Below are positions 153-20,518 of a stretch of DNA of 33,142 nt, piece by piece; the first letter of the stretch is position 1; the number at the start of each line of letters is the position of its first letter. Source of the stretch: Baffinella frigidus (Eukaryota > Cryptophyceae > Cryptomonadales > Baffinellaceae); contig MU646562.1 in NCBI GenBank assembly GCA_026770585.1, positions 252,330 through 285,471 of the forward strand, read 5' to 3'. The notes under the pieces were generated by a model. The model did no database searches, had not been told where the DNA came from, and worked only from the letters and a program-made list of their open reading frames with translations. Position numbers and translations under genes: made by a program.

Positions 153-263
153 TCAGACCGAGAGGGAGAGGCGAGCCACGATGGCGAGGGAGAAGGCAGC
201 GTGGTAGAGGGCGATCGCGATGACTGCGGCGCCCGAGACCAACACCGCGTAGTTGAGGCCCAA
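153..263 (-). CDS. LPAT: LPAT exon 13 (C-terminal membrane segment, stop)
   Basis: Acceptor TGCAG. 36 codons plus TGA. Residues 319-354 begin LGLNYAVLVSGAAVIAIA and continue hydrophobic, a C-terminal transmembrane segment as in ER LPATs. A donor-like GTCTGA overlaps the stop, so a further exon outside the readable gene is not excluded. The (AT)40 tract lies about 70 bp downstream of the stop codon. Confidence 0.8.
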   Translation of the reverse strand: MGLNYAVLVSGAAVIAIALYHAAFSLAIVARLSLSV

Positions 264-3200
264 CTGCACAGGTTATCAGACACGATATCAGACAGGTTAT
301 GAGATAGGTTATGGGACAGGTTGTGAGACAGGTTATGAGACAGCCGCTGCCGAGCGAGGACGAGATTCAATTTTAAGATGTAATCCATAGGCCCTACGGA
401 TCAAAACCGTAGGGACATTGGGGGTTCCTACGGAAAAGCCATGGTCAATTTTCGACCTTGGCTTTTAAACGAACCCCCGGCTGCCTCGATAGCAGTTATG
501 AGACAGGTTGTGAGACAGGCTGTGAGATAGGTTGAGAGACAGGTTATGGACCTTTAGGTCCTTTAGGTTTTAATTTCTCCCGACATGGCCCAACGACACG
601 CCGTTCCGTAGAAACGATCTGCAGGGAAAGCATTTAGACATGTTGTGAGACAGGTTGCGAGACGGTAGTTGAGGCCCAACTGCTCAGGTTGTGAGACAGG
701 TTATGAGACAGGTTATGGGACAGGTTACGAGACAGGGAGGGCAGAGGAACGGTGTGAGATGGCCAGAAATGGCGTGAGGTAGGAATGGCATGAGATGGGC
801 CCGCCTCGGGACAGATGGCCCAACAACAACGCCACAGATCAACACCGCGTAGTTGAGGCCCAACTGCCGCCGACAAATCTCTGAATTTTCAGGTCCCTGT
901 GAAAGAATTTCCTGGTAAGGATAAAAAATTATTGCGCGTGGTTCCACACGAGAACGCTACAGGGGCCTAATTAAAACCGATGTGCTTTTAAAAGTGGGCA
1001 TTTGTGTAGTAACGTTGGTTGATTGGCCACGTAACTAGCCATATATTCGCATTATTGTACCTGAGCGCCCGTGCATTCGGTGATGGCGTAGGTCTCTCAC
1101 CAGCCATCACAAGTGGCTCAAATAGTGCCCTGGAAGGTCTTCGATTTTACGTTGAATCGGGGTCGAATCCGACCCCGATCCAAGGTAAATCGAAAATGCC
1201 CCAGAGCACTATTTGAGCCACCTCCAAGGGCTAGTGGTCTCCAGGGACCTTCTGCGTCTTCGCAAACTCGGTGTTGGGTGTCGTTTTTTGAGCACCCAAC
1301 ACCGGGTTAGCACAGTCACGAGGTTGGAATACCCTATCCGGGTACAAATGTTTACAACCCCACATGTAAATAGGCCCCTCTTGGATTCTCGAGTGGCTGT
1401 CTCCAAGGACCTTTTGACAGATGCACTGAGCAGCCACCGGCGCCGTCCTCGATCCCGGGAGAGATTCTGCACCTTTTGGCGTGTTTCCCTGGTGACAATC
1501 AACTTTGGACCAACTCGCCAAAAGCCACCGGTGGGTGCTAAGTGGACACAGTGTACCTGGGCGCCCGAGTATTCGGGGATGGCGTAGGTCTCTTTTTGGA
1601 ACTTGAGAAAAAATGGGGGAAACCACACGGTGGACTACGAACCTTTCATCAAAAGTCAACTCAACTCAAGACAATTAACGCTAAGAATGTTTCTAATTCA
1701 AATCGGTCACGTAATACCCCGGAATCCGGGGTCAACAAACCCTTGGTAGCCCACCGAGTGGCGGCTCAACTTTCTGCCATTTCCCGTCGAAACGGAATGC
1801 AAGGTGCCTCGGGTGGGTCCTCTAAGGGGCTCCTTCTTACAGTATGATAGACCCAGGGTTGGTTGGCTCAAGGTGTTCTGGGGAGGTCACACGAGAGAGA
1901 GGATAATCTCCAGGGACCTACCCAGAGTCGTATAACACCAAGTATACACCGTATACGAAGATTAAGTTGATTGTGAGTAATTAAGTTGATCGTGAGCAAT
2001 GAAGTGGACATATTCACACGAAGATCGTACCTGGGTGTATTTGGGGATGGCTTGGTCTCTCTGGGGAACTTCAAATTGCTTTGCAAATCGTTTTGGAGGG
2101 CTAAGTCCGGCGTCCAGGATGGACTTGAGTCGCGCTCCAACCGAAAAACGTTTTTCGCATTATTGTACCTGGCGCCCATGTAGAGAGACAAAATAATCTC
2201 GAGGGACCTACCCAGAGTCGTATATCACCAAGTATACAAAGTCGTATATCACCAAGTATACAACGGAGTCGTACATCAAAAAGTATGCAACGTATACGAA
2301 GATCGTACCTGGGCGCCCGTGTATTCCGGGATGGCGTAGGTCTCTCCGGGGAACTTCTGCGTCTTTGCAAAGTCCGCGAGCAGCCTGTGTTTCGGGTTTC
2401 GGGTTTCGGGTCTAGGGTTAAGGGCTTCCTTCTCAGTCTAGGGTTAAGGGATTTCTTCTCGTTTAGGGTCCAGGGTTGAGGGTTTCCTTCGGGTCTAGGG
2501 GCAAGGATTTCCTTCGTTTCCTTTGGAAGCATGGCCTTTCTTCAGAACAAGTTCCGGTGTCCGCCTGTGTTGGGAGCTCGAAGAACCTAAAGGACCTAAA
2601 GGATATCAGGCTTGAGAAAACCCAACAAAACCACTTGAGAAAACCCAACCAAACCAAAGGAGAAACATCAAGAAAACCACTCACTCAGGATTGAGAGAAA
2701 TCAACAAGAGACTCCCTGGATTGCACTGTGAGCCAGAACATTTCACCTAAGTCAACTCCTCCTGAAAGCCAGTGCCTTAAGTCAAATGCCTGCTCCCAGA
2801 GCAGGTCCATCCAAACAAAATGGCAACTTACTGCCAGCGTTGTTGACTTGAGGTAAAATATGGTGGGTAGCAGTGGATTGCTCACTTGTCCTTGGTCTCG
2901 AAGCGCTTGATGGTCCACTTGTAGATTCCGTCAGCGTCCAACGGGATCTCCGAGATCGGCACAAAGCTGATATGCATATGCACCTGATTTCAACCGCCAT
3001 ATATATATATATATTAGCTTCCGGCAACAAAATCTACAACACAATTTGGCCACACTATCCTGAAAACCGGGTAGTTAAGCCTAGGGTGTCCTGGAATCCG
3101 GGTAGTTAAGCCTAGGGTATTGCCTTCAGTAGGCCGTAGGGCCCTAAGGTGGGTCCTATGAAACATTAGGTCCCAGGGGTCCTACGGCCTACCGTATGCA

Positions 3201-4406
3201 ATACCGTAGGCCTAACTAGCGTGTTTCCAGGACGTAGCCCTCTTCATATGCACCTGGACACTCAACCGCCAACGTAGTGAGCGGTGGACTTATTTCGACT
3301 TAACTCTGGTACAGAAGATTGCACCCTACCCAACCCCGCTAAAACCCCGGTGGCTGCTAAGTGGACACCCGAACGCCCCCGAACGCCAACGTTACCGGCG
3401 GACTTAGGTGGACGTGACGCAGGTACAAAACATTACAATCAGTATTTTAAATCCTAGCTCTGCCTGACTCGGGTTGACCGACTGTTCTAACGTTGACATG
3501 GTGGGTCTGCGGTACAAACCCGCCAACTTTTGCACTCCAAAGATCCCGGGCTCGCCAAATCGGCGAGGCGGATCAAACTGAGAACTTGCGCAGGATGCCC
3601 TTCCCGAGAGGAATAAAGAAGAAGAATAAGAAACCCCAGATGTCTGATAGTGACGCCGCTCCAAATCGGTCATCTGGACAAGGCTGAGACAGAGATAGAT
3701 CTGAGTTCCGATGCTGCATTTCAAGAGACCTCTGCCCATTATAGAGCAATGGCTCCAATGCCATCCCGAGGCGGGCTCGTCCTAGCCTAGCTGGCCTAGG
3801 TCCTCACAATCTGCGTCGGATGTCATTTCCGAAGAGGATGGTTTCGAGCGACGGTTGGATCTTCCACGCCAGAGCCCAGGAGGGGGTTGAAGTTTTTAGA
3901 ACCTTACAGGATGGGACTTTGACTTTTGAAAACCACTGCCTTCAGGGGAAATTGACTTTTGGCAACCCCTTCCAAGAATCTGGCGTGGTTCTAGCTCTAC
4001 CTGAGTAAAACTGGGCTTTATGGCCACAAAAGAATTTTGGTTGCCCTTTTGTACTGGAGTTTCTGCTCTAAATGTGTTTTATGGCGAGTCCGGTTAAATT
4101 AAGGCTAGACCTTGCGGACTCCCTTCCCGAAGAGGATCGTCTGCAGCGATGGGCATCGTACCCACACATCGGACTTCGAAGCGATTTTGAATAACCCGTA
4201 AGCGATAAGACCTAGGACCCTACGGTAGGCAGCCCGTAGGCAAATAGAGGGGTTCCCACGGATAATGTAACGGAAAGTCGGCGCGATGTGGGCCGAAAAT
4301 CCCTTCGTAGGCCGGTGTGTGGAAAGAAAAGAGCAACGGCGGGTGGCTTAATCCACCCTGCGAGATACTGTATTTAGGCTTACGCCGGAAGTAGGGCGTG
4401 CTCTCT

Positions 4407-4473
<67 letters not shown>

Positions 4474-7400
4474 CTCTCTCTCTCTCACCTTGCGGCGGAT
4501 GCCTTTTCCGAAGAGGATGGTTTCGAGCGAGGGCTGGATCTTGCCCTTGGCGTCCCGGACTTCGTACGCGAGGGTCACGTCGATCACGCCGTCCACGTCA
4601 CCCCGCACCTATTTTGAATATGGCGTCAGTTGGGGTGGACAGGACGGCAGTTGGTAGGATAGGGCGTCAGTTGGGATGGATAGGGCGTCAGTTGGGGTGG
4701 ATAGGGCGGCAGCTGGCAGGATAGGGCGGCAGTTAGAGGTGTTGCACTTGGTACGCGAGGGTCACGTCGATCACGTGATGTGTCCACATCTCCCCGCACC
4801 TTCATCAAAGAGGACGTCACTTGCCAGGATAGGGCGGCAGTTGGCAGGATAGTTGGCAGGATAGGGCGGCAGTTAGAGGTGTTGCCCTTGGCGTCCCTCA
4901 CTTCGTACGCGAGGGTCACGTCCCCGCACCGCCCCGGTAGGAGGTGGAGTTGGAACCCATCCAGAAAATGCTCGTATGAGCGGCCGACACGGGGTACAGT
5001 AGTGGCGCAATGCGTAGCATGTGCGGCGCTGACGCTGGTCGTTTGGCAATAAATTATCAATCTCTCTCCCCGCACCTATATTAAATAGGGAGTCAGTTGG
5101 GGTGGATAGGGCGTCAGTTGGCAGGATAGGGCGTCAGTTGGGATGGATGGGGCGGCAGTCGGCAGGATAGGGCGGCAGTTGGGGTGGATAGGGCATCAGT
5201 TGGCAGGATATGGCGGCAGGATAGGGCGGGCAGTTAGAGGTCTTGCCCTTCGTACGCGAGCGTCACGTCGATCACGCGAAGAGAGAAGGATTCAGGGTGT
5301 GGGTGTAGGGTGCAGGGCGTAGGGTGTAGGGTGTAGGGTGTAGGGTGTAGGGTGTAGGGTGTAGGGTGTAGGGTGTAGTGTTTAGGGTTTGGGGGTGTAG
5401 GGTGTAAGGTGTAGGGTGTAGGGTGTAGGGTGTAGGGTGTAGAGTGTAGGGAGTAGACCCCTTCGAAGCTGGCTTGGAGGCCTTTGACGCGCGGGACCAG
5501 GAGGTGCTCCATCACAGGCAGCCCTACGCAGGGGGGGTTAGGGTTTAGGCGAAATCAGATCCAATTTTAAACACCGTTTTTGTGCTATTTAAACACCATT
5601 TTTGTGCTCTCCATCACAGGCAGCCCAGCGCAGGGGGGGTTAGGGTTTAAAGCGAAATCAGATCCAATTTTAAGCACCATTTTTGTGCTATCTTAAGGTT
5701 AAATTTTGCTATCTTGGTATCTGCACAGCTTTTACTCAGCACACACCCCACCCCTAAGGTAGAAAACAGGTGTTTCTCAGTACCGGCAGCCCTGGGTTTG
5801 GGGTTTAGGGTTTAGGGTTTGGGGTTTGGAGTGTAGGGCGTAGGGTTTAGGGTTTAGGGTTTAGGGTCTGGGGTGTAGGGTTTAGAGTTTAGGGTTTAGG
5901 GTTAGGGTTTAGGGTTTAGGGTTTAGGGATTAGGGTTTAGGGTCGAGGGTTTAGGGATTAGGATTTAGGGTTCAGGACCTTTTTCCTTGGAGAAGGCCTG
6001 GGCGGACGCGAGCATCGACGGCTTGAAGCGCGTGCCTTCCGGGAAGATCATCAGCCAAAAGTTGCCGGTGCTGCGCGCGCACCTCTTTTTCACTCGAAAG
6101 TTGACGTGTTTGTACCAGAAACCCAGAACGTCAACTTGAGAATAGTCCGCTAACCCGAGCAAAGCAAAGCTAGGGGCATCAGCCAAAAGTTGCCGGTGCT
6201 GCGCGCAGAAGCCCACAACGTCAACTTAAGGGAAGTCCGGTAAGCCGATCAACTCAAGGGAAGTCCGCTAAGCCGATCGAGGCATCAATTTTTTTGTTAG
6301 CGGACTATTCTCAAGGTGACGATGCAAAGCTAGGATGTTCAGTCGGTTGCCCGTGCTGCATGCCGATCGAGAATGCTGGAGCAGCCTATTTACATGTGGA
6401 GTTGTAAGAATTTGTAGCAGGATACGGTGCGTTATCAGGCGATCCTGCAGTCTTCGCACAGGAACGTGACCAAACTCACGAAATTTACTACACAAACGCC
6501 CACTTGTAAAAGCATCTCGGTTTTAATTAGGTCCCTCTAGCGTTGTCGTGTGGGGATACGCAGCGCTCGGCAATTTCATCTCGGAACATACCAGAATCTG
6601 TCCTGATAAGAAGGCGTAAGATAGCATCATTTGATGCCTAAAATAGCATATACCCCCTTACCTTCCGCGTGGGGAACCTAAGATAGCGGGACAGATTCTG
6701 TCTTGTCCCGAAATTAAATTGAGGTTTATTGGATACCTGGCTCTGCCTTACAAATCTAGTGACACCGGGCGCTGTTTCGCTCTAAAGTTGACGGATTTGT
6801 ACCCAGCAACCCCGAATGTCAACTTGAGAATAGCCTGCCAACCCAGCTGAGGCTGAGGAAGGATGCCCGTGAGATCACAGAGTGTTAATAGGGTACCGTC
6901 CTTAAAACCGGGTAGTTAGACCTACGGTATTGCCTTCGGTAAGCTGTAGGGCTCTTAGGACCTAATGTTTCGTAGGACCCCCCCCCAGGCCCCTACGGCC
7001 TACCGCAGGTCATAGCGTACCCGGTTTTCAGGACGTTGGCCTATGAGTGTTGGGTGACAGTCAGCGTATTCTCAAGTCGACACTCTGGGTGTGTGGTACA
7101 CACCCGTCAACTTGCAGTGACCCCCCCCCCCGTCTCACCCCGAATCAGACAGACCAACGAGACTTAGAGAGCGAGCGAGGAAATAACCTGTACTAGAGAG
7201 AGAGAGGGAGGAAATAACCTGTACTAGAGAGAGAGAGGGGAGATAACCTGAACTGGAGAGAAAGCAAGGAAATAACCTGCACTGGAGAGAGAGCGAGGAA
7301 ATAACCTGTACTAGAGAGAGAGAGAGGAAATAACCTGTACTGCTTGGACTTCTCGACGAGCGTGCGGAGCTGGCTCTGCGTGTTTAGGGTTTAGGGTTTA

Positions 7401-10400: not shown

Positions 10401-13400
10401 GAAATTACGTACCACTTTTAAAACTCCAAACACCCTGCTTTTGGAGTTTTAAAAATAACCGACGCCGGAATCCGGCGGCCTTCAAGGGCATTACGTACCG
10501 CCAAATTCGATCATTTGCTCAAACCGTGAGGGTTGGTGGAAGCACAGGTTATGAATGTGCAAAGTCTCTATCAGAGGTTTCTCCAGTACAAACCTTGACC
10601 ACACAGCGGGCTACGAAGGGATTTTTTGCTCAGATTTAAGCTATTTTCCGTGACCAGATGTGCGCGTCCTGCAGAGAAATCTCCGTTTAGCGTTTAGGTT
10701 CTGATCCCACACAGCGGGCAACGAAGGGATTTTCGGCCCACATTGCGCGGACTTTCCGTTACCGTAACCGTAGGAACCCCCCCTGTGTCCCTACGGGTTG
10801 CCTACCGTAAGGTCCCAGGTCTTATCGCTTATGTGTTATTCAAAATGCCTTCGAAGTCCGCTGTGTGGTTACAAGGCCTGCAGGGAAGGGAAGGATAGTG
10901 GCCATGTTGAGCTCGATGCGTCATACACACACCGGACTTCAAAGCGATTTTGAAAGGGGAATCTCCACCAAACGTCCATTTGAGAGAGTGTCTGGTGGGG
11001 CTCGCTACCTCTAGCCTTGTCCCAGTTCAATTTGGGCTCGTAGATAGAGTGCCCCCCCCGAAATTTCACAGCTGAATTTTGACACCGCGTCATGAAATTC
11101 GGCTCCAAGAAACCTTTCTGCAGCCCTCTTCAACGTCAAGTCAGGGGGGGGTCTCCGCCAAGAGTCCACTTTAGAGAGTGTTCGGGCGGGGTTTAATAGG
11201 GTAACGGACTAAAAATGGGGAAGTTCGACCTACGGTATTACCTACGGTAGGCCGTAGGGTTTTTCGTAGGAGCCCCTCTAGGCCCCTACGGCCTACAGAA
11301 GTCAATACTGTAGGCCTAACTACCCCATTTTTAGTCCGTTAGCCTATGAGAGTCCACTTTAGAGAGTGTTCGGGGTTGGTCGTAACCTCCCCGAGGTGGC
11401 CCGCAAAGCCGAAAATAACCAAAGAGGAGGGGGCCCAAACCCTTTGAGCCATTCCTATAGGAACCTGAAAATCCCAAAAACATGTGTGCTCTAACTTTTG
11501 AACCCCTGGGCCGAATTCACTTTTCTCGACGGTTCTGGATTCCTCATCACGCTCTCTCCAAACCCACTCGAAGAAACATCTCGAGCGGAGTACAGGAACA
11601 TGCCGAAACTCGCCTTGTTCGTGGAAAGTTGACTAAAACGGTGGGCCTGTTTCCGGGCCTCTGGCGCCCTATATTCTATGAGCGGGTTTGAAGAGGGAAT
11701 CATGGGGATTCCAGAACCGTTGAGAAACGTGAAAGCGACCTTCTGCGTCAAAAGTTACAGCCCAGAGCGTCCCACGGTGGACCTGACGGACCCGCCTCGG
11801 TACCCCAACAATTGCCGCACCCTGAATATCTCATTCCATGCAGAGCGTAACCGGGTAGTTCCAATAGGCAAGTTTCTTAAAATTTCGAGGGCTACAACTT
11901 TGCGATAGGAACCGCCCGGTTACGCTCTGCAGGTAAACATGTTCCTACACAAAAAGGCCGATTGGGCCCCCTCCCAAAGAGTCGAAATTTCACAGGTGAA
12001 TTTTGACCCCCCCCATGAAATTTACCTGTGAAATTTCGGGGGGGGCACTCTATCTACGGGCCCAAATTGAAGTGGGACAGAGCTAGTACCTCTCCGAGGT
12101 GTCCCGCGAAGCCGAAGATGACCTCATCCGGGAACATGTTTAACTTGAAAGAAAATGGGCTACCAAACCGGATTCTGCCCTAATTAAATTTACTTAGGGC
12201 CCTAATAAATCTTCCTTCACGTCCTATGAACACATTGGGATCCATTTTCTTTTGAGAGAGTGTTCGGGGTTGTTCGTCACCTCTCCGAGGTGTCCCGCGA
12301 AGCCGAAAATAACGAGGGAGTCTGTCATGGAGACGTGGTTCGACATCAGGATCCGTACGACGGTTGAGTAAACCATGCAGCGTTTGTAACGGGGCGGTGA
12401 CTACACCGGGCAGGTTGAGTACCAGGAAAAGGACAGTTTAGTCAACCGCTGTTCGGCGGGGCTCGCAACCTCCCCGAGGCGAGCGTCCTGCGGCTGAACC
12501 TTTCCGCAGCCCTCTTCAAAGTCAACTCAGGGGGGGATCTCCGCCAAGAGTCCACTTTAGAGAGTGTTCGGGGTTGGTCGTAACCTCTCCGAGGTGGCCC
12601 GCGAAGCCGAAGATGACCAAAGAGTCTGTCATCGAGACGTGGTTCGACATCAGGATCTTGCTCCCCGTTTGCCTGTTGAGGGGTTTCCACCGTTAGGGTT
12701 TAGGGAAGAAGGGAAGCATAGACGCTAACCCATGAACAATAGACCCTACGGTGGCATCATCCATGATGGGCTTGCTAGGTACACGAGTTGCTCCTTCGCG
12801 TAGACGTGGTTGGACATCAGGATCTTGCTCCCCGTGTGCCTGTTGGGAGCAAATCGTCTTTTTGAGTCCCTTGATTTGAATCTGGTTTTATAGTTGCAGC
12901 AAAAAAACTGGCCCCTCCCCCATTGGACATCAGGATCTTGCTCCCCGTGTGCCTCTCGAGGGGTTTCCACCGTTACTCTAAGTTAACGGAAGTTCCACTT
13001 TTGCTTTGAGACGTTCCACTCTCGACTTTTGTTCGAGTCGAGGGGTTTAATTACACAAACAAACATGGAAACGAGGGGTTTCCGTTTGCCTGTTGCCACG
13101 CCAGATTGGAGGTGGGGGTAGAATTTTTTAAAACCTTTCTGATAAGGGTTGGAAACTTTTGAAAACCACTGCCTTCAAGGGGAATTGACTTTTGGCGACC
13201 CCTTCCAAGAATCTGGCGTGTTGAGGGGTTCAGCGATTTGGTCCCAGCCCAGAATAAATTCTGTTTCGCAAGGCGTCCATCTAAAGGATTTCTGGCACAG
13301 AACAGGGCCGTTTAAAACCCCGACGTGAATTACGCTGCGTTCATCTAAAGGATTTCTGGGATAAAACAGGCCTTTTGAACCCCCGACGTGAATTAAGCTC

Positions 13401-16400
13401 CGAAATGGCTCCAAGCCGCACTCAACGTGATCGACACGTGGTTCGTAAACGAGATGTTTCAATGAAAATTACTACACGGATACTCGAACGTTACTACTAG
13501 TAAGAAGTAATGACGTGAATTAGGCTCCGAAATGGCTCCAAGCCGCACTCAACGTGACCGAGACGTGGTTCGTGAACGAGACACCCTAAGCCCTTAAAGA
13601 CCCTAAACCCGAAAAGACCCTTCACCTACACCCTACACCCTACACCCTACACCCTACACCCTACACCCTACACCCTTCACCCTTCACCCTACACCCCCAA
13701 AGACCCTACACCCTGCACTGTAAACCCCCTGAAGCCTTCGCGATGTCGGACGGCGTGCAGACCCTCCCCACCCTTATCTGAGGAAACCCTTTTGTCTGTC
13801 ATTTGATTCCAATGAAAATTACTACACGGATTCTTTAATATTACTACTAGTAAGAGCGAGTTGTGTAGTAATTTTCGTTGCCATCAAACGAAAGAAAAAT
13901 AGGTTTCCCCGGATAAACCCACCCTCTGGGGTGGTTCTGGGCTGCTAGAGTCCTCACGTCTCGTCCCACCTGTCCAACTGGCGTACAGCGGTCGTGTTTG
14001 ACTATTTAGTAAACTTCCTCCCCACCCCGTTCGGAGCTTGCTCCCCGTTTGCCTGTTCGAGTCCAGGGGTTTAATCACAAAAAAACACATATGGAAACAT
14101 TGAGGTAAAATGCCTTTACTACGGTTCGAAACCAACGTGGCCAGCCACTTAGCAGCCACCGGGGGCTTCACGGATACAGTCCTTCCGAACGATTTGTTCT
14201 AGAATCTTATCCATTGCTCTGGAACCTAGCCGGAACTTCACCTTGAATTTAAGGTGAAAAGGTCTTCGCTCGCTGCTAAGTAGTTGTATTCCCTCTTCCG
14301 TCAAGGCGTTGGAAGACTAGGACCGGCTGAGGGTTTCGCAATTAGGGTCTAGCAAATAGAGTTTAGCGATGAGAGTTGAGCGATTAGGGTTTAACGATTA
14401 GAGTTAAGCGATCAGGGTTTAGCGATTAGGGTTTAGCGATTAGGGGTTAGCGATTAGAGTTTAGCAATTAGGGTTTCGCAATTAGGGTTGAGCAATCAGG
14501 GTTGAGCAATAAGGGTTTAGCAATTAGGGTTTAGCGATTAGGGTTTAGCTGCGGGACCTGAGCAATCTCATCTCGGAACATACCAGAATCTGTCCACATA
14601 AAAACGCGTACGATAGCATCATTGTACTCCTAAAATACCATTTACACGCCTAAAATACCATTTACACCCTTACAAATTTATAAATTACAAGTGTTTCAAT
14701 ATGAGATTCTCTCTTGGTTTTGATGAGTTTCACGTCACCGTAGTAGACAGGCGTAATCGCTGACCCCTTTAACCCCAAACCCTAAACCCCGAGTCCCCAA
14801 TCCCTGACCCCTTTAACCCTAATCCCTGAACCATAAACTCTCACTTGGTAAACCCTAAACCTGGAACCCTACACCCTGAATTCTCACCTGGTCCGAATGA
14901 GCGCGACCAGACCCCTAACCCCCCAAACCCAATCTCTCACTTGGTGCGGATGAGTTCCACGTCGCCGTAGTAGACAGGCGTGACCCCTCCCATGACGTGG
15001 GCCCACCCGTAAATCGCGAACCACGCCCGCCGTGCCATGAACGTCAGCAGACTCTGCAAAACACACACAGCACGACAACACTATCAGTCAGCACTACAAA
15101 ACTGTAAGTCAGCACTACAATACTATTAGTCAGCACGACAACACTAATAGTCAGCACTTCAATACTATTAGTCAGCACTACAATCTTAATAAATCGCGAA
15201 CCACGCCCTTCGTGCCATGAACGTCAGCAGACTCCCTGCGAGTGTGTGGGGGGGGGTTGGCGAGTGGTGGGTGGGGGTTGGGTTTTGGGGTTAGGGCTTA
15301 CGGTTCGGCGTTTGGAGTTTGGGGTTTAGGGGTTGGGGTTTAGGGTTTCCTGGGCGTTTCTATGTAATGAGGGGGGTCGCTAGGGTTTAGGGCTCGCGTT
15401 TCTACGTATTTCCCTCGGACGAAATCATGGTAGAAAGGCGTGGCCCCACCCGTAGATCACATCAGCACTACAATACTATTACTCAGCACTGCAACACTAT
15501 TAGTCAGCACTACAATGCTATTAGTCAGCACTATAACACTATTAGTCAGCACTACAATACTATTATTCCGCACTAAAATGTTAACAAATCGCGAACCACG
15601 CCCTTTCCAAGGAAACCCGAACCCTATTCCCGAACCCTACTTCCTACACCAGGGCTGTACGGAGATCCCCAGGAAACCCTACACCCTGATGCGCCGGGTG
15701 TACAGGGGTACCTCGCTCATAAGGAACCGACCCCCCCTAGGACTCTACAGTAGGACCATCCCTAGGGTCATAGGGTGGTCCTAGGGGGGGGGGCGACTTC
15801 GTATGAGCGAGGCACGACAGCGTGGGTGAGGGGTACCCCTCTAGGGTTTCCTGGGACGCGCCGCAGGCTTCTGCCACCGTGTTAATACGATAACGGACTA
15901 AAAAGGGGGTAGTTAGGCCTACGGTATTACCTACGGTAGGCCGTAGGGTTTTTCGTAGGAGCCCCCCTAGGCCCCTACGGCCTACCGTAGTCAATACCGT
16001 AGGCCTAACTACCCCATTTTCTGTCCGTTAGCCTATGAGTGTCTGAACCAGTTCCAGTGCCCGCCTATGTTGGGAGCTCGAAGAACCTAAAAGACCTACA
16101 GTGGTGCCCTGTTGCACCACCCCCCCGGAGCCCCCCCAGAGCCCCCCCGGAGGCAGCAGGCGAGTCGGCCCCACGACAGGGCCATGCCATGGCCATGCTG
16201 TTCGCGGGTCGGCGGCTGACCTGGTGCGTCTGGGAAGACACGCCCGCGATCTCTCCCTCTCCCTCTCTCCCTCCCCCTCTCCCTCTCCCTCTCTCTCCCT
16301 CTCCCCCTCTCTCTCTCCCCCCTCTCTCTCTCTGTCGCTCTCTCGACCTGATGCGCCTGGGAGGACAAGGGGGCGACGAAGAGCGCGGAGATGGCCGGGA

Positions 16401-18489
16401 GGATGTTGCACATGAACAACATCGCCGTGTACAGCCCTGGTGTAGGGAGCATGGTGCTTCAGGGAGTGTGCTGCTTGTAGTGGGGAGTATGAAGGAGTGT
16501 GTACAGCCCTGGTGTATTCGAGAGTACGGTGGTTGAGGGAGTATGGTGGTTGGATTGGGGAGTATTAGGGAGTATGGTGTTTGTAGCGGGTCGGACGGGA
16601 GGATGAACAGAACTGAATTTCCGGGGTCAAATTTTGGGTTGCGACCCCCTTGCGAGGGGGTTGCGACCCCCTCGCCTAGAGATTCCCGGGAGACGTGCAG
16701 CACATCGCCGTGTACGGCCCTGAGCGAGAACGGTACAGGGCTTACTCCAAGCTAAGGTCACACAATACAAGGTCACACACCGTAAACTGAGATGTGGACC
16801 TGAATTATTCAAGGTCCGCACACCACACCCGTTTTCTGCGGACCTTAATATTTGAAGGTCCGCACCACACCCGTTTTGCGGACCTTAATGATTTGAGGTC
16901 CACACACCACCCCCCTGAAAATGGTGTTTTGTGTGACCTTAATTTCGAGTAAGCCCTGTAGAGGGTTCAGGAGCGCCAGCACTGAGCAACCTGCACCCTA
17001 CACCCTACACCCTACACCCTATCCCTTAAGTGGCCAGTAGGCTCCTACGCCCTACCGTAGGGCCCTAGGACCTGCGTAGGACCGCTTGGCGGTCAAACTT
17101 GACCGCCTGGCCACTTAAGAGATGCCCTACACCGCACACCCTTGCCGGGAGGATCTAGCTCTGCCTCACACGGTTTTCGTCTCATCACAATCATGAGACC
17201 GTAAGTCAATTCCCCGGGTTTTAGTGCAAATTCGTTAAATTTTCAGGTGAAAACGATTAGTCAACCCGAGTCAGGCAGAGCTAGGTATGTGTGGGGTGTG
17301 GGGTGTGGGGTGTGCGGTGTGGGGTGTGGGGTGTGGGGTGTGGGGTGTGGGGTGTGGGGTGTGGGGTGTGGGGTGTGGGGTGTGGGGTGTGGGGNNNNNN
17401 NNNNTGGGGTGTGGGATTCGGGGTTTGGGATTCGGGGTTTGGGGTTTGGGGTTGCGCACGACGAACATCGCCGTGTGCAGCCCTGGTGTAGGGAGTAGGG
17501 TTCGGGGGTCAGGGTTTGGGTTGTGGGGGTGGGGTTTAGGGTTTAGGGTCTAGTGTTTATGTTTGGGCTTAGGGCTTAGGGTTGAGGGTTTAGGGTTTAG
17601 GGTTTAGGGTTTAGTGTTTAGTGTTTAGGGTTTAGGGTTTATTGTTTAGGTTTTAGGGTTTAGGGTTCAGGGTTTAGGGTTCAGGGTTTAGGGTTCAGGT
17701 TTAGCGATTCCATGGGGTTTGGGGTTTGGGGTTTGGGGTTTAGGGTTTAGGGTTTGTGGTTTCGGGTTGGTGCTTGTTTGTAATTCAAACGATTCAGTTA
17801 TCTTCCCCGATGAAAGTGGTATCTTACACCCAACACTTTGTGGGAGAATCGCCTTTCCCGGAATCCCGGATTCTAGCTCTGTCTTGTCTCACCAGTCTGA
17901 TTTGGTCTCACCTTTCTGGTGAGACCACAACTCTGTTGAGACGGTCTCACCATTCTGGCGAGACCGGGCTCTTTTGCACTCCAGCGTTGACGGATGTGTA
18001 CTAGAAACCCACAACGTCAACTTGAGAATAGTCCCCGACTTGAGAATAGTCCTCTGCTCAGGCAAAGCTCGAGTGGAGCCGGATTTCGGGGCGCTCCAGC
18101 TCGTATCAAGCGGAGCGAAAACGGCGACGTGTTCCCCCTCAGAGGGCTGGTGGCAACGAACGCCACACAAAGGCATCTTGACTCTTCCGGTTTGTCGTAC
18201 TGTTCCGACAGACCCGATGCACTTCCCACAAAACGAAAACACGCCACCGACGACACAAACAGAACATCCGGTGAACCACGCCCCATGCAGACGTTCATCG
18301 CAGCGGTCGAGCGAGGGTGGGGACCCGCCAGGGCTCGCTACACGGCCAGGCTCTTCACGGCTGTTGTGGTGTAGGGTGAGGGTTTAGGGTGTAGAGTGTA
18401 GGTGTAGGTCGTAAGGTGTAGGGTGTAGGGAACAGACCCAGGAGGTGCACGACGCCGAGCGCCCCGCGGAACATCCCGTACAGCCCCAT
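153..18489 (-). CDS. LPAT: LPAT/AGPAT-type 1-acylglycerol-3-phosphate acyltransferase, 13 exons (354 aa)
   Basis: Joined exons (minus strand): 18489-18438, 16436-16348, 15053-14941, 12672-12585, 10360-10306, 8780-8710, 7375-7341, 6070-5979, 5523-5459, 4608-4489, 2983-2886, 2384-2309, 263-153. Sequence shows: all introns GT-AG, all phases agree, total 1065 nt ending in TGA. Residues 95-101 are NHVSMTD (block I, catalytic His/Asp), 139-146 NFIFLKRD (block II region), 177-182 FPEGTR (block III, phosphate binding), 208-213 VPRVKG (block IV). Hydrophobic segments lie near 19-42, 133-144 and 319-348. Known for the family: it transfers an acyl chain from acyl-CoA to lysophosphatidate (or another lysophospholipid) in the ER membrane, giving phosphatidate for glycerolipid synthesis; family members are usually 300-390 aa. 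Inferred: substrate class only; a lysocardiolipin/AGPAT5-like role is possible. Odd: coding is about 6% of the 18.3-kb span and echoes of nearly every exon fill the introns. The ATG at 18489 has an AAGATGG context; an upstream acceptor (18550) with an open frame leaves an N-terminal extension possible. Confidence 0.9.
268..740. repeat. CAGGTTATGAGA minisatellite blocks
   Basis: Three blocks (about 268-345, 486-548, 636-740) of a 10-12 bp unit GACAGGTTATGAGACAGGTT in LPAT intron 12. They begin at the exon 13 acceptor (…GCAG|) and appear to grow from the intron sequence next to it. Between them (about 370-470) is a small palindromic CCTACGG/CCGTAGG module. Confidence 0.85.
665..870 (-). pseudogene. 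two echoes of LPAT exon 13
   Basis: 665-683 and 838-866 repeat the acceptor and first codons of exon 13 (LGLNY; second copy LGLNYAVLI), then diverge. Each keeps an AG acceptor. They cannot code a full exon. Confidence 0.85.
1623..1761. mobile_element. MITE-like element, family L, copy 1
   Basis: Ends CCACACGGTGGACTAC and, inverted, CCACTCGGTGGGCTAC; 139 bp, no ORF. A homologous copy in the same orientation is at 29041-29181. Confidence 0.75.
1850..2035 (+). mobile_element. repeat family K, copy 1
   Basis: Runs from CAGGGTTGGTTGG through GAGGTCACACGAGAGA and CCTACCCAGAGTCGTAT to AAGTTGATTGTGAG. The reverse complement recurs at 31690-31880. Fragments occur at 2188-2300 and 21223-21290. Confidence 0.75.
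2309..2384 (-). CDS. LPAT: LPAT exon 12
   Basis: Acceptor ACACAG, donor GTACGA; phase 2 in, phase 0 out. Encodes LLADFAKTQKFPGETY then AIPEYTGAQ (residues 294-318). Together with exon 11 this gives the family's 'KD-x-L-L-x-x-F...FPGE' pattern. Five diverged copies of this exon occur between 1058 and 2184. Confidence 0.88.
2545..2612 (+). repeat. interspersed repeat with GGGAGCTCGAAGAACC
   Basis: GTTCCGGTGTCCGCC...GAAGAACCTAAAGGACCT recurs at 16043-16100, directly after a family A element. Both read VGSSKNLKDL in one frame, but no gene is evident. Nature unknown. The rest of 2400-2860 shows TTTCGGG/TCTAGGG repeats and nothing recognisable. Confidence 0.6.
2886..2983 (-). CDS. LPAT: LPAT exon 11
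   Basis: Acceptor ATCAG, donor GTGAGC. Residues 261-292 plus two bases: VHMHISFVPISEIPLDADG, then YKWTIKRFETKD. The 'V-H-x-H-I..I-P-x-D' pattern is the conserved C-terminal LPAT segment. Without splicing the next codon would be followed by TGA; the strong donor and exon 12 argue for splicing. Confidence 0.94.
3057..3240. mobile_element. MITE-like element, family A (variant)
   Basis: Inverted arms with CTGAAAACCGGGTAGTTA and CCTACGG/CCGTAGG core; the left arm is partly duplicated. Same subfamily as 6888-7044. Confidence 0.75.
3244..3258 (-). pseudogene. short echo of LPAT exon 11 acceptor
   Basis: Repeats the acceptor and first codons of exon 11 (CAG|GTGCATATG) 260 bp upstream of it in the intron. 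The remaining 3260-3580 carries TTGACG/GTCAAC palindromic pieces and no gene. Confidence 0.65.
3583..4153 (-). pseudogene. three 3' echoes of LPAT exon 10
   Basis: 3583-3617 (LGKGILRK), 3806-3868 (KIQPSLETILFG, then NDIRRR) and 4109-4153 (PSLQTILFGKGVRK) repeat the 3' half of exon 10 with substitutions. They lie downstream of the true exon in transcription. Confidence 0.9.
4162..4322. mobile_element. MITE-like element, family B
   Basis: Ends CCACACATCGGACTTCGAAG and, inverted, CCACACACCGGCCTACGAAG. The core has AAGCGATAAGACCTAGGACC and CCTACGGTAGG. 161 bp, non-coding. Confidence 0.9.
4401..4486. repeat. (CT)n microsatellite
   Basis: Starts at the exon 10 donor; on the sense strand GTGAGAGAGAG... 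forms the beginning of intron 10. Confidence 0.95.
4489..4608 (-). CDS. LPAT: LPAT exon 10
   Basis: Acceptor AATAG, donor GTGAGA directly into a (GA)n tract. Exactly 40 codons (residues 221-260) including GVIDVTLAYEV and PSLETILFGKGIRRK. This matches the post-block-IV 'D-V-T-x-A-Y' strand and the 'PS-x-x-x-(L)-x-G-K' segment of eukaryotic LPATs. At least seven echoes flank it on both sides. Confidence 0.95.
4618..5278 (-). repeat. GGATAGGGCGGCAGTTGGCA minisatellite with embedded exon 10 echoes
   Basis: A 19-21 bp unit occurs in blocks 4618-4740, 4814-4880 and 5087-5235. Between blocks are 5' echoes of LPAT exon 10 (4741-4802, 4881-4930, 5061-5087, 5241-5278), each reading part of DVTLAYEVRDAKG with its upstream edge. 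Confidence 0.88.
5292..5452. repeat. GTGTAGG heptamer array
   Basis: Degenerate telomere-like heptamers (GTGTAGG) abutting the exon 9 donor; the sense strand reads CCTACAC. Confidence 0.95.
5459..5523 (-). CDS. LPAT: LPAT exon 9 (VPR block)
   Basis: Acceptor GTAG, donor GTCTAC. Residues 199-220 contain LPVMEHLLVPRVKGLQASFE. LVPR-x-KG is block IV of the family (acyl-acceptor binding). Flanked by a GTGTAGG array downstream and a duplicated approx. 100-bp acceptor unit upstream. Confidence 0.95.
5527..5972. repeat. duplicated exon 9 acceptor unit and TTTAGGG array
   Basis: CTCCATCACAGGCAGCC plus GCGAAATCAGATCCAATTTT occurs twice about 100 bp apart (5507-5605 and 5606-5700), so the exon 9 5' edge is copied at 5606-5640 and again weakly near 5780-5797. 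5797-5972 is interstitial TTTAGGG running up to the exon 8 donor. Confidence 0.88.
5979..6070 (-). CDS. LPAT: LPAT exon 8 (FPEGTR block)
   Basis: Acceptor CGCAG, donor GTCCTG. Encodes TGNFWLMIFPEGTRFKPS and on to KEK (residues 169-198). FPEGTR is the diagnostic block III of the PlsC/LPAT superfamily. The donor runs straight into CCCTAAA-type repeats on the sense strand. A second copy of its 5' edge lies at 6176-6210. Confidence 0.95.
6090..6160. repeat. palindromic repeat, family N
   Basis: CGAAAGTTGACG...TTTGTACCAGAAACCC...GTCAACTTGAGAATAGTCC, about 65 bp. Relatives at 6778-6842, 7060-7115 (inverted), 17979-18035 and 18585-18662. Confidence 0.7.
6176..6210 (-). pseudogene. echo of LPAT exon 8 5' edge
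   Basis: GCCAAAAGTTGCCGGTGCTG followed by CGCGCAG repeats the exon 8 acceptor and TGNFWLM codons 110 bp upstream of the real one. A weaker trace is at 6338-6360. Confidence 0.85.
6571..6721. mobile_element. MITE-like element, family G
   Basis: CAATTTCATCTCGGAACATA ... inverted CAATTTAATTTCGGGACAAG, with ACAGAATCTGTC inside both arms. Copies at 8044-8176 and 14563-14692 (left half). Confidence 0.85.
6888..7044. mobile_element. MITE-like element, family A (GTCCT subfamily)
   Basis: Left ATAGGGTACCGTCCTTAAAA, right inverted ATAGGCCAACGTCCTGAAAA, then CCGGGTA on both. 157 bp with a CCTACGG/CCGTAGG core. Confidence 0.85.
7143..7340 (-). repeat. minisatellite grown from the LPAT exon 7 donor
   Basis: Six or so units of AGGAAATAACCTGTACTAGAG plus (GA)n. 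On the sense strand each unit contains the splice donor CA|GTACAGGTTATTTCC of exon 7; the last unit is the real junction at 7341. Confidence 0.85.
7341..7375 (-). CDS. LPAT: LPAT exon 7 (35-nt small exon)
   Basis: Acceptor CGCAG, donor GTACAG. Eleven codons plus two bases: SQLRTLVEKSK then H by splicing. Fits the LPAT spacer between block II and FPEGTR. Too short to recognise alone; supported by phase agreement on both sides and by amplified copies of its donor in the intron. Confidence 0.75.
7381..7448. repeat. interstitial TTTAGGG array
   Basis: Near-perfect heptamers immediately upstream (sense) of the exon 7 acceptor. Confidence 0.97.
7531..7690. mobile_element. MITE-like element, family B
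   Basis: CCACGCAGCGGGCTACGAAG ... CCACACAGCGGACTTCGAAG inverted; 160 bp. Opposite orientation of the core relative to 4162-4322. Confidence 0.9.
7845..8018. mobile_element. MITE-like element, family F
   Basis: GGTCGCCAGATTTCATCCCC ... inverted GGTCGCCGGAATCTTATCCC; inner arms share CACAGGCATTNAAATNAAATGC and ATGCATACTTTTGGCGTC. 174 bp. A half-relative is near 29285-29335. Confidence 0.85.
8044..8176. mobile_element. MITE-like element, family G
   Basis: TCTAATCTCGGAACATAACA ... matching inverted arm ending TTCCGAAATTAAAT; 133 bp. Confidence 0.85.
8211..8374 (-). pseudogene. two echoes of LPAT exon 6 3' end
   Basis: 8211-8252 reads NYYDEKDKLRIR and 8338-8374 reads NRYQKDRRRI, both diverged copies of RDYEKDKLRIR. 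Between and after them is a GTCAGGATTTGTACCAGGAC repeat. Confidence 0.8.
8590..8703 (-). repeat. minisatellite grown from the LPAT exon 6 donor
   Basis: About eight tandem units of GTACCCGGATGCG / GTACCCAGATGCAGAAAG. On the sense strand each is CGCATC(C/T)GG|GTAC, the exact exon 6 splice junction. The real junction is at 8710. Confidence 0.88.
8710..8780 (-). CDS. LPAT: LPAT exon 6 (block II)
   Basis: Acceptor CGCAG, donor GTACAC. Residues 133-156 contain GWFWWTLNFIFLKRDYEKDK, typical of the LPAT block II neighbourhood (GWxxW...FLxR...KD). The donor junction is the seed of the minisatellite that follows in the intron. Confidence 0.9.
8902..9040. mobile_element. MITE-like element, family H
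   Basis: CCACTTAGCAGCCACCGGGG ... inverted CCCACTTAGCAGCGACCGAAG; 139 bp, TATC-flanked. Copies at 14145-14284, 20806-20944 and a half at 32935-33012. Confidence 0.85.
9110..9155 (-). pseudogene. echo of LPAT exon 6 with stop
   Basis: Reads CAG|GGTGGTTCTAGTGGACGC, i.e. GWF-stop-WT, then LQRD. Keeps the acceptor but the UAG kills it. Confidence 0.88.
9154..9600. repeat. TTTAGGG / TTTCGGG / TTTATGG / TTTAGTG variant arrays
   Basis: Successive blocks of heptamer variants, each locally homogenised: TTTAGGG, TTTCGGG (9296-9335), GGTTTATGGTT (9415-9540), GTTTAGT (9541-9590). LPAT intron 5. Confidence 0.95.
9638..10155 (-). pseudogene. three echoes of LPAT exon 5
   Basis: 9638-9675, 9780-9826 (AKKQLAYQPIM) and 10111-10155 (NKQFAYQPIIG) repeat exon 5's 3' half and the following GATGCC intron bases. 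TTTAGGG arrays (9965-10105) and GGGGATAGGGTTTACGGAAG pieces fill the rest. Confidence 0.87.
10306..10360 (-). CDS. LPAT: LPAT exon 5
   Basis: Acceptor TGCAG, donor GTGATG. Residues 115-132 plus one base: DAHIRAYTKQQLAYQPIIG. Matches the basic 'K-x-L-x-x-x-P-(I/V)-(I/F)-G' stretch of LPATs between blocks I and II. A palindromic element starts 11 bp upstream of the exon in the intron; five echoes are present. Confidence 0.85.
10372..10539. mobile_element. MITE-like element, family E
   Basis: CCACCAGCCCTCACGGTTTG ... inverted CCACCAACCCTCACGGTTTG, 168 bp, with a nested hairpin of TTTTAAAACTCCAAA. Starts 12 bp upstream of LPAT exon 5. Confidence 0.9.
10599..10673. mobile_element. family B end fragment plus exon 5 acceptor echo
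   Basis: 10599-10628 is one family B terminus (CCACACAGCGGGCTACGAAG). 10650-10673 repeats the exon 5 acceptor and DAHI codons (CTGCAG|GACGCGCACATC on the minus strand). Confidence 0.75.
10707..10868. mobile_element. MITE-like element, family B
   Basis: CCACACAGCGGGCAACGAAG ... CCACACAGCGGACTTCGAAG inverted; 162 bp. A further left-end fragment is at 10926-10955. Confidence 0.9.
11010..11106. mobile_element. half element, family I
   Basis: CTAGCCTTGTCCCAGTTCAATTTGGG arm (split: CTAGCCTTGTCCCAG and TTCAATTTGGG) with GAAATTTCACAG(C/G)TGAATTTTGAC. The other arm type is at 11958-12086; a full copy is at 21411-21564. Confidence 0.7.
11196..11347. mobile_element. MITE-like element, family A
   Basis: ATAGGGTAACGGACTAAAAA / inverted ATAGGCTAACGGACTAAAAA, then TGGGGNAGTT; 152 bp. 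Inserted in, and flanked on both sides by, a duplicated GAGTCCACTTTAGAGAGTG segment. Confidence 0.92.
11383..12485 (-). pseudogene. four echoes of LPAT exon 4 (downstream side)
   Basis: 11383-11425, 12084-12131 (VIFGFAGHLGE), 12261-12352 (RILMSNHVSMTDSLV then IFGFAGHLGE, nearly whole but lacking the acceptor) and 12454-12485. Several carry the same downstream intron, CCCCGAACACTCTCTAAAG. 11430-11957 shows one plausible hairpin (11846-11935) and nothing else recognised. Confidence 0.9.
11958..12086. mobile_element. half element, family I
   Basis: Inverted GAAATTTCACAGGTGAATTT / AAATTTACCTGTGAAATTTC, then CTATCTACGGGCCCAAATTG to GGGACAGAGCTAG. Confidence 0.72.
12585..12672 (-). CDS. LPAT: LPAT exon 4 (catalytic NHxxxxD block)
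   Basis: Acceptor AACAG, donor GTTACG; phases agree with exons 3 and 5. Encodes GSKILMSNHVSMTDSLVI then FGFAGHLGE (residues 86-114). H96 and D101 are the expected catalytic pair. At least seven partial copies of this exon lie within 3 kb. This copy is chosen because it alone retains acceptor, full frame and donor. Confidence 0.87.
12751..12804 (-). pseudogene. displaced echo of LPAT exon 5
   Basis: Reads AKEQLVYL and GATGCC as at 9638; the preceding AGCATAGAC...CCCTACGGTGGCATCA is shared with 9600-9645. The copy thus sits upstream of exon 4, out of transcription order. Confidence 0.82.
13610..13735. repeat. ACACCCT heptamer array
   Basis: CCCTACA repeats on the plus strand, opposite to most arrays of this gene. 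Next to it is a short unique stretch (13736-13773) with no identified function. Confidence 0.93.
13774..13916. mobile_element. MITE-like element, family D
   Basis: TTATCTGAGGAAACCC ... inverted TTATCCGGGGAAACCTATTT; inner CAATGAAAATTACTACACG / CGAAAATTACTACACAAC. A fragment of the same family is at 13464-13513. Confidence 0.85.
14145..14284. mobile_element. MITE-like element, family H
   Basis: CACTTAGCAGCCACCGGGGG ... inverted ACTTAGCAGCGAGCGAAGAC; 140 bp. Confidence 0.85.
14330..14560. repeat. TTTAGCGATTAGGG minisatellite
   Basis: About 15 units of a 14-bp telomere-variant (AGGGTTTAGCGATT) in LPAT intron 3. Confidence 0.93.
14563..14692. mobile_element. left half of a family G element
   Basis: CAATCTCATCTCGGAACATA then ACCAGAATCTGTC; CTAAAATACCATTTACAC duplicated inside; the right arm is missing. 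Confidence 0.75.
14941..15053 (-). CDS. LPAT: LPAT exon 3
   Basis: Acceptor TGCAG, canonical donor GTGAGA. Residues 48-84 plus two bases contain FMARRAWFAIYGWAH and PVYYGDVELIRT. This matches the aromatic-rich stretch and G-(V)-x-x-Y-x-D region that precede the catalytic NHxxxxD in LPATs. Five partial copies surround it. Confidence 0.85.
15076..15585. repeat. AGTCAGCACTACAATACTATT minisatellite, two blocks
   Basis: 21-bp units at 15080-15190 and 15456-15585, each block ending at an exon 3 echo (AATCGCGAACCACGCC). Between them is a TTTAGGG/GGGG-rich stretch (15241-15420). Confidence 0.92.
15711..15812. mobile_element. palindromic element, family P
   Basis: CCTCGCTCATAAGGAACCG ... inverted CCTCGCTCATACGAAGTCG with CCCCCCCTAGGA inside. 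An outer imperfect arm (AGGAAACCCTA / TAGGGTTTCCT) extends to about 15671-15853. Confidence 0.75.
15885..16036. mobile_element. MITE-like element, family A
   Basis: ATACGATAACGGACTAAAAA ... ATAGGCTAACGGACAGAAAA inverted; GTAGTTAGGCCTACGGTATT in both arms; 152 bp, about 90% similar to 11196-11347. Confidence 0.92.
16249..16342. repeat. CT-rich TCTCCC tract
   Basis: Imperfect (CTCTCCC)n beginning at the exon 2 donor; GGGAGAG on the sense strand. Confidence 0.93.
16348..16436 (-). CDS. LPAT: LPAT exon 2 (N-terminal membrane segment)
   Basis: Acceptor CCAG, donor GTCGAG. Residues 18-47 begin GLYTAMLFMCNILPAISA, a strongly hydrophobic stretch expected to be the first transmembrane or monotopic anchor. 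Intron 2 starts in purine-rich DNA (plus strand CT-rich). Three or four echoes of its two edges lie in introns 1 and 2. Confidence 0.8.
17021..17122. mobile_element. MITE-like element, family C
   Basis: ATCCCTTAAGTGGCCAGTAG ... inverted ATCTCTTAAGTGGCCAGGCG with GTCAAACTTGAC at the centre side; core CCCTACCGTAGGGCCCTAGG. 102 bp. 16740-16960 just before it contains four AAGGTCC(G/A)CACACCA repeats. Confidence 0.9.
17155..17285. mobile_element. MITE-like element, family I
   Basis: CTAGCTCTGCCTCACACGG ... inverted CTAGCTCTGCCTGACTCGG; 131 bp. Confidence 0.8.
17287..17454. repeat. GGGGTGT array with 10-N gap
   Basis: Heptamer GTGTGGG repeats interrupted by Ns at 17395-17404 (assembly gap; true length unknown), ending in GGGGTTT. 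17498-17760 continues as TTTAGGG. Confidence 0.97.
18030..18365. other. unique non-repeat island in LPAT intron 1
   Basis: About 330 bp without recognisable repeats; a plus-strand frame is open across it (…VFPLRGLVATNATQ…FIAAVERGWG…), and so is a minus frame. No known domain seen; could be a captured gene fragment or intronic regulatory DNA. Flanked on the left by a family N palindrome and on the right by GTGTAGG repeats. Confidence 0.35.
18438..18489 (-). CDS. LPAT: LPAT exon 1 (start codon)
   Basis: Codes residues 1-17 plus one base (MGLYGMFRGALGVVHLL), donor GTCTGT. ATG at 18489 has A at -3 and G at +4. The frame stays open upstream to a possible acceptor (CACAG before 18549), so this could be the 3' part of a longer internal exon with the true start further up. 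Phase 1 matches exon 2. Confidence 0.72.
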
Positions 18490-20212: not shown

Positions 20213-20373
20213 CCACACAGCAGACTTCGAAGAGATTCTTGAATAACCCCTAAGCGATAAGACCTAGGACCCTACAGTAGGCAACCCGTAGGGACATAGG
20301 GGAGTTCCTACGGATAAGGCAACGGAAACTCGGCCCGAAATGTGCCGAAAATCCCTTCCAAGCCCGCTGTGTT
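20213..20373. mobile_element. MITE-like element, family B
   Basis: CCACACAGCAGACTTCGAAG ... inverted ACACAGCGGGCTTGGAAGGG; 161 bp; butts directly against a family E element. Confidence 0.9.
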
Positions 20374-20518
20374 GTGCCCTCAGGGTTCGAGCAAATCGAC
20401 GATTTTTGATTTCCGATCCCTTCGGGAATTGGAGCCGTTGAAGTCGGATTCCGTGTTCACTCCCGAAGGAATAGGGAAACAAAAGTCGTGGATTTGCCCC
20501 AACCCTGGGGGCTGGTGG
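20374..20518. mobile_element. MITE-like element, family E (diverged)
   Basis: GCCCTCAGGGTTCGAGCAAA / inverted CCACCAGCCCCCAGGGTTGG; TTCGGGAATTGG and CCGTTGAAGTCGG inside. Confidence 0.75.

Follow-up and report, generated by a model that had tools for sequence, protein, structure and literature searches.

One-edged exon copies in the introns of Baffinella frigidus probably arise by recurrent short direct duplications across exon–intron boundaries

Slipped or template-switched replication on the same strand is one route of DNA duplication, and patch-mediated double-strand-break repair, reportedly treated by Vaughn and Bennetzen in 2014, is said to be named alongside staggered-break tandem duplication. 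The present analysis concerns a stretch of 33,142 bp from the cryptophyte Baffinella frigidus (the window), in which the introns of an LPAT acyltransferase gene hold partial copies of the neighbouring exons, here called echoes. The closest described systems, as presented in the relevant parts of the papers cited, share some features with these echoes and differ in others. Direct duplication across an intron–exon boundary has been described (PMC4974935), but there a single event gave rise to a new spliced intron, whereas here many events, in two genes, each left a copy decaying in an existing intron. Tandem duplication from staggered breaks (PMC5730883) is likewise direct, short and in place, and its geometry gives polarity; its products are termed tandem duplications, whereas most of the pairs measured here are spaced and diverged. 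Repair-mediated duplication in vertebrates (PMC2671141) is proximal and short and takes in exons and splice sites, but it copies a template into an unrelated break, with no polarity described in the relevant part of that paper, whereas the copies reported here are polar; its 824 probable cases in the human genome compare with a detectable density of about 0.8 pairs per kb in the present genome, by different methods. Finally, direct repeats near intron splice sites (PMC11782384) also lie at or near intron borders and are taken as insertion traces, but they measure 4–30 bp (mean 11.4) and surround the two borders of one intron, whereas here 15–73 nt of an exon are copied into the neighbouring intron. 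In a worm, tandem duplications become more frequent once a helicase that guards against them is lost, according to the relevant part of PMC8654963.

An earlier note on this DNA, made from its letters alone, had held that no named process fits the copies. That view is not supported: boundary-crossing tandem duplication, staggered-break duplication and repair-mediated duplication, as far as the relevant parts of those papers go, share much of the anatomy. The model of intron gain by duplication of an AGGT site does not apply as such: there is no new intron between copies (0 of 43 echoes with both edges), and the parent exons match their relatives unbroken. The kind of process is known, and its density and near-perfect polarity look unusual. 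Among the open-licence papers listed in literature searches, no description was found in cryptophytes or as a genome-wide pattern.

The window covers positions 252330–285471 of contig C258 in an assembly of 382.5 Mb and 1364 contigs. The LPAT gene lies on its minus strand and, in a homology-based model, comprises 13 exons encoding 356 amino acids, with the Pfam domains Acyltransferase and Acyltransf_C; its 12 introns measure 455–2268 bp and have GT–AG edges. For this model the gene was pieced together from open frames and set against relatives in an alignment; the closest relative (P0001) shares 69% identity, and a Rhodomonas transcript is among the others at 45%. Exons were placed through tblastn, reading frame and splice edges. 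Intron density is very high and the exons are tiny, with 12 introns per 1071 bp of coding sequence and exons of 41–120 bp.

With each exon sequence alone as blastn query (E ≤ 0.01), and a splice edge counted when no more than 6 nt away, the LPAT gene yielded 29 partial copies from 10 of its 13 exons (2, 3, 4, 5, 6, 8, 9, 10, 12 and 13) and none from exons 1, 7 and 11. All 29 lie within 1.4 kb of the parent exon and in the gene's own orientation, and 23 keep one splice edge; a single exon has up to six echoes, and identities range from 77 to 100%. Relaxing the threshold to E ≤ 0.1 gave 33 matches, all in the same orientation and 32 of them local (the single far match has E = 0.026), and tightening it to E ≤ 0.001 left 25, every one local and direct. 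Intron control segments, unlike exons, match in both orientations, near and far: among 300 segments (E ≤ 0.001), 99 had local direct and 62 local inverted matches, with far matches in 121 and 103. When the whole 382-Mb assembly was searched with exon 4 and its flanks, 5 matches were obtained, all within the same 1.5 kb, namely the parent and four of its six echoes. No dispersed copies of exon 4 were found elsewhere by this search, which covered one exon and skips very common words, and dispersal as a mobile element or retrocopy was not seen for exon 4 and its flanks. Joins of exon n to exon n+1 of the mRNA type were not noticed by eye in the printed echoes, for which no systematic test was made. 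The earlier note had described local copies in the gene's orientation, mostly with one splice edge, and had set aside processed pseudogenes and whole-gene duplication, all of which is borne out here; its list of copied exons (2–6 and 8–13) stands for every exon named except exon 11.

The diagnostic feature of the echoes, absent from the earlier note, is their polarity. The LPAT echoes and 14 others from a P4-type ATPase gene of the same genome (described below) make up 43 echoes at E ≤ 0.01, all of them direct, all within 2 kb of the parent and none with both splice edges. The 20 echoes with an acceptor edge all lie upstream of the parent exon, the 17 with a donor edge all lie downstream, and 6 have neither. 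Overall, 42 of the 43 obey the rule that upstream copies carry the acceptor side and downstream copies the donor side. The exception (1238–1269) appears to be the inner half of an exon 12 copy split by an inverted-repeat element, and it obeys the rule once the halves are rejoined. Not all 43 are independent, as some look like echoes of echoes (P4 exon r array).

Such polarity is automatic when a stretch across an exon edge is duplicated in place, and it is not expected of pieces copied to arbitrary nearby sites. Copies that are one-edged, polar and direct thus point to the geometry of an in-place duplication that spans the exon edge, reaching from exon into intron, rather than to dispersed capture. 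The copies are local, exclusively direct, polar, one-edged and decaying, and they occur in more than one gene; the echoes are probably the products of recurrent short direct duplications across exon–intron boundaries, which are spliced out and then decay. The molecular step of duplication can only be inferred. Most likely, frequent small breaks or stalls would be healed by in-place duplication of a stretch of tens to a few hundred bp, with one end within the exon and the other in the adjoining intron, and end-joining of staggered breaks with fill-in, or slipped or template-switched same-strand replication, would be the likeliest molecular candidates. The duplicate still joined to the remainder of the exon would be the working exon, and the other would stay in the intron with one edge, tolerated and free to decay because splicing removes it. 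Duplications inside exons would usually be harmful, those across an exon edge would be hidden by splicing, and those within introns would be free; copies that hold both edges or cut the exon would alter the mRNA and be purged. Extra DNA may often be inserted between the copies, during the event or later. In this way, introns would gather one-edged copies on a predictable side, palindromic elements and heptamers would be added, and the copies would fade.

The individual echoes are given here in the order of the gene, with positions in the window, all on the minus strand; upstream and downstream refer to the parent exon. Exons were placed by tblastn with frame and edges unless stated otherwise, and echoes come from the exon-only search. 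Exon 1 (18438–18489) has no echo. Exon 2 (16348–16436) has two upstream echoes of its acceptor side (17451–17482 and 16702–16719). Exon 3 (14941–15053) is preceded by an acceptor-side echo (15190–15233) and two edgeless fragments (15586–15603 and 15439–15458), and followed by a donor-side echo (14714–14754). Exon 4 (12585–12672), the exon searched against the whole assembly, has three acceptor-side echoes upstream (14033–14052, 12923–12952 and 12802–12839) and three donor-side echoes downstream (12281–12353, 12090–12123 and 11387–11426); the last three and 12802–12839 were also recovered in the whole-assembly search, and the copy at 11387–11426 continues into intron sequence as far as 11349. 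The echo at 12802–12839 starts a chimera (12704–12845, junction read by eye) that joins the acceptor side of exon 4 to an exon-5-type donor piece, out of order and with most of both exons absent. Its exon-5-type part confirms the out-of-order copy pointed out previously (12704–12776 matches 9591–9663 with 91.8% identity). Downstream of exon 5 itself (10306–10360) are two donor-side echoes (10119–10145 and 9792–9816). Exon 6 (8710–8780) has an acceptor-side echo upstream (9112–9150), which holds the stop already reported for 9110–9155, and a donor-side echo downstream (8218–8246).

Exon 7 (7335–7375) lacks echoes, and exons 8 (5979–6070) and 9 (5459–5523) have one upstream acceptor-side echo each, at 6177–6198 and at 5609–5625, the latter within a 103-bp tandem repeat. 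Exon 10 (4489–4608) has upstream two edgeless fragments (5248–5277 and 4882–4922) and an acceptor-side echo (4746–4799), and downstream two donor-side echoes, one short of the edge by 6 nt (4114–4152) and the other by 2 nt (3812–3863). Exon 11 (2886–2983) again has none. Exon 12 (2309–2384), placed by frame and splice edges and not among the tblastn matches listed, is followed by an exon-only match without an exact edge (2035–2087), a donor-side echo (1557–1604) and the split copy, whose outer half at 1061–1098 bears the donor side and is separated from the inner half by the inverted-repeat element at 1113–1221. Exon 13 (153–263, including the stop codon), placed by frame and splice edge, has two upstream acceptor-side echoes (830–863 and 665–679).

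Echoes are not confined to this gene: the earlier note had proposed a survey of other genes of the genome, and copies were found in the P4-ATPase gene, in loci sampled outside the window and in kinase loci. The note would have been refuted had other loci been free of such copies, and this is not the case. The P4-type ATPase lies in L003 (positions 100001–120000 of contig C15, picked blind) and the neighbouring L025, and was recognised by codon scoring, relatives and exon mapping. The 26 mapped exons (36–148 bp) are those with a clear match and clear edges, and at least three coding stretches, near 2598–2683, 5174–5278 and 5404–5496 of L003, were omitted. Nine of the 26 gave the 14 echoes, all direct; three matches (h, l and w, with E values of 0.016–0.019) fall outside the threshold. 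Across both genes, about half of the tested exons (19 of 39) have an echo. Some P4 cases are plain tandem duplications, as is the 103-bp repeat at LPAT exon 9: exon q is found at L003 7375–7511 and 7525–7663 (85% identity over 139 columns, 13 bp between the copies), and exon r has three acceptor-edge copies arrayed at steps of 91, 71 and 58 bp. At exons t and u, one junction, a single case read by eye, joins the start of u to the end of t via a shared 7-mer, the reversed order to be expected after a tandem duplication whose ends lay at microhomologous sites of the two exons.

Outside the window, 13 loci with 86.8 kb of readable letters were sampled, L023 and L024 being non-random; 11 of the 20 stretches drawn, plus L022, were left out as unreadable or nearly so. 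Pairs were counted, here and in the other pair comparisons, with tandem repeats masked, and those recurring in other loci (>20% cover) were removed to set aside dispersed elements. Below 1.6 kb there were 69 direct and 3 inverted pairs, equivalent to about 0.8 local direct pairs per kb, and beyond that distance none of either kind; inside the window the counts were 41 direct and 3 inverted below 1.6 kb, and 6 of each beyond. Dinucleotide-resampled sequence and 50 kb of E. coli, the sole natural control and a bacterial one, gave no local pairs, which excludes chance. At loci other than the two genes, 20 pairs reached a codon-predicted exon, and in 18 of them the remainder of the exon lay away from the copy; no predicted exon was involved in another 34. 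Six kinase loci were chosen from 108 kinase matches, and four of them hold local direct pairs, 8 of 11 following the polarity rule and 6 more lying outside predicted exons; the 3 failures are all on doubtful minus-strand predictions in L033. By eye, two long donor-edge copies come after the kinase exon at 2884–2999 of L029, along with a third fragment (2884–3540 in all), and an acceptor-edge copy with a seemingly homologous but diverged intron flank comes before the exon at 3456–3572 of L033.

The echoes are decaying. In 42 of the 63 amino-acid differences between echo and parent, relatives have the parent's residue, in 7 they have the echo's and in 14 neither, so that the changes lie predominantly on the echo side; two stops occur in 484 echo codons. 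Nevertheless, a number of results weigh against duplication in place followed by decay. The first is the constraint visible between echo and parent, with a dN/dS of 0.26 (bootstrap 0.18–0.37) in a set that includes nested, hence not independent, copies, and an uncorrected pN/pS of 0.29, below the 0.44–0.54 obtained in simulations with the echo neutral and the parent constrained. Such values, together with only 13 gap columns in 1549, could speak for echoes being functional alternative exon ends under selection. This reading is nonetheless very unlikely, as no echo has both edges, so that using one would draw intron sequence into the mRNA, and the outgroups and stops tell of decay; echoes as selected coding sequence, suggested by the low dN/dS, were rejected on the placement of 42 of the 63 changes on the echo and 7 on the parent. 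Judged by the nonsynonymous differences, neutral decay would account for about half of the synonymous differences seen between echo and parent.

The same dN/dS could arise between two coding alleles and therefore also bears on an assembly artefact, in which alleles or paralogues were wrongly joined. The window does contain a gap, its only N, ten letters at 17395–17404 within a GTGTGGG array. Against an artefact stand up to six echoes per exon at identities of 77–100%, the density of local direct pairs outside the window, the stops and changes at conserved residues in echoes, and the outcome of the genome-wide search with exon 4, which brought up no further copy of this exon, allelic or otherwise, at any other place in the assembly; misassembly is accordingly hard to credit.

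Other results against duplication in place concern the extent and spacing of the copies. Extension beyond the edge was measured for 32 of the 37 edge-bearing echoes, with a strict scoring that can miss diverged flanks, as in the L033 case. The shared exon part has a median of 37.5 nt and the shared intron part one of 8.5 nt; similarity is lost within 8 nt past the splice edge in 16 of 32, and at least 20 nt of intron are shared in 12, so that the previously described inclusion of intron sequence holds for some copies. For the 16 that end so soon, one has to suppose that the intron diverged fast or that filler was inserted. Moreover, most pairs are not adjacent: the ratio of duplicated length to spacing is 0.7 or more in 2 of 32 and 0.3 or less in 21, and most pairs do not, as they stand, look like simple adjacent tandem arrays. 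Only about a third of 106 direct pairs, separated by a median spacer of about 175 bp, show the flanking homology of tandem type (score ≥ 32 in 35%, against 5% in the control), and extension into the intron flank exceeds the control only partly (score ≥ 16 in 13 of 30, against 17%). Later insertions and fast intron divergence can widen the spacing, and in-place duplication is the safe statement.

These measures suit a sub-mechanism of boundary-crossing duplication that predicts the same polarity, in which two nicks staggered by 20–100 bp lie on either side of the splice junction, both ends are filled, and the same event traps unrelated DNA (palindromic elements, heptamers, minisatellite) between the copies. 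The short shared parts, the low closure and the spacers mostly without flank homology are what it would leave, and breaks with 46-nt overhangs lead to tandem duplications in mouse stem cells, according to the relevant part of PMC5730883. A further case in its favour is the stretch at 11161–11374, in which 162 bp with a palindromic element lie between perfect 26-bp direct repeats, a related unfilled stretch being found at 12497–12624. On the other hand, longer intron stretches are shared by P4 exons q and z, LPAT exon 9, one copy of exon 13 and some copies of exon 4; the spacer contents, by eye, come from no single element family; and at another member of the 162-bp family, near 6888, the repeat looks by eye to be 8 bp long. 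Staggered nicking with capture is a serious possibility that falls somewhat short of an even chance. The 26-bp repeats (11161–11186 and 11349–11374) had also suggested one transposon family with a long target-site duplication; this was rejected as the general cause because the spacers, by eye, do not hold a single family of DNA and because long stretches of intron are shared within several pairs. Members of the 162-bp family also occur near 6885, 15885 and 21006, and the spacer of P4 exon z holds another palindromic element, flanked by 14-bp direct repeats (by eye).

The chimera at 12704–12845 also weighs against duplication in place, its exon-5-type part sitting 3.1 kb off and out of order. 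It fits repair-mediated duplication by synthesis-dependent strand annealing, in which an intron break is patched from nearby sequence, here from about 3 kb away; the distance of no more than 5 kb between donor and copy that this process implies is also respected by all 43 echoes, which lie within 2 kb. Patching from nearby sequence should, however, place edge pieces on either side of the exon, and 42 of 43 lie on the side expected of in-place duplication, which renders it an unlikely general source of the echoes.

The earlier note had assigned a role to the heptamer arrays of the introns, with copies breaking off into heptamers and heptamer sequence expected at the breakpoints. The breakpoint check does not support this: heptamer-like sequence flanks the exon-internal end of 1 of the 38 echoes tested (of 43), against 18% of random intron positions, and exon-internal breakpoints are thus depleted of heptamers, which led to heptamer breakpoints being disfavoured. 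Heptamer-like sequence is enriched 7–37 nt from the splice sites at 37 parent intron edges (43% on the donor side and 41% on the acceptor side, against 18% at random), as re-replication or gap repair primed by heptamers might require; in view of the exon-internal ends, such priming is most improbable. The telomere-like heptamers of the introns are strand-biased with the gene, with sense-strand CCCTAAA to TTTAGGG ratios of 61:6 in LPAT (153–18489) and 147:1 in the P4 gene (L003/L025). Selection against cryptic splice sites could be the cause of this bias, since CCCTAAA repeats contain neither GT nor AG.

Two further results against the favoured reading concern where duplications fall. At E ≤ 0.01, 17 of the 26 mapped P4 exons and 3 of the 13 LPAT exons gave no echo. 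Moreover, of the 44 local direct pairs within the spans of these genes, 30 touch an exon, where uniform placement would predict 28%. Part of this excess is a matter of detection, since exons stay recognisable longer; among pairs of at least 94% identity, 9 of 15 touch an exon, and with such an excess in the young pairs a genuine coupling to exon edges is conceivable. Duplication might be coupled to exon–intron boundaries, for instance through breaks or replication stalling where transcription meets splicing, so that introns would grow outward by copying exon edges. Splice edges are not placed uniformly along the shared stretch (Kolmogorov–Smirnov p about 1e-4), but in the 13 youngest pairs the comparison of exon part and intron part gave a Wilcoxon p of 0.14. 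Coupling of this kind is unlikely; if true, its signature would be the exon excess and the 16 of 32 copies that stop no more than 8 nt from the splice site.

Intron growth and the origin of intron sequence are hard to read as traces decay, and the exons of this genome act as conserved tags for local duplications, each echo yielding one end of an event together with its direction and approximate age. From a genome in which about half of the tested exons bear an echo, one could measure how often boundary-crossing duplications arise, how large they are and how well they survive, and one could test directly whether introns protect duplications that would be lethal inside exons. A little-known route of intron growth would thereby be readable directly from DNA. 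Gene predictors are to be warned of echoes, which are coding-like fragments with one splice edge.

Other repeats occur in the same DNA. A family of elements of about 160 bp, present in both orientations, has seven copies in the window, one of them shorter (4160–4322, 7531–7692, 10707–10868, 20213–20375, 25887–26045, 28059–28217 and 29805–29913), and more at other loci. Outside the LPAT gene, a degenerate array of about 110 CCCGAAA heptamer units occupies 751 bp at 23817–24567.

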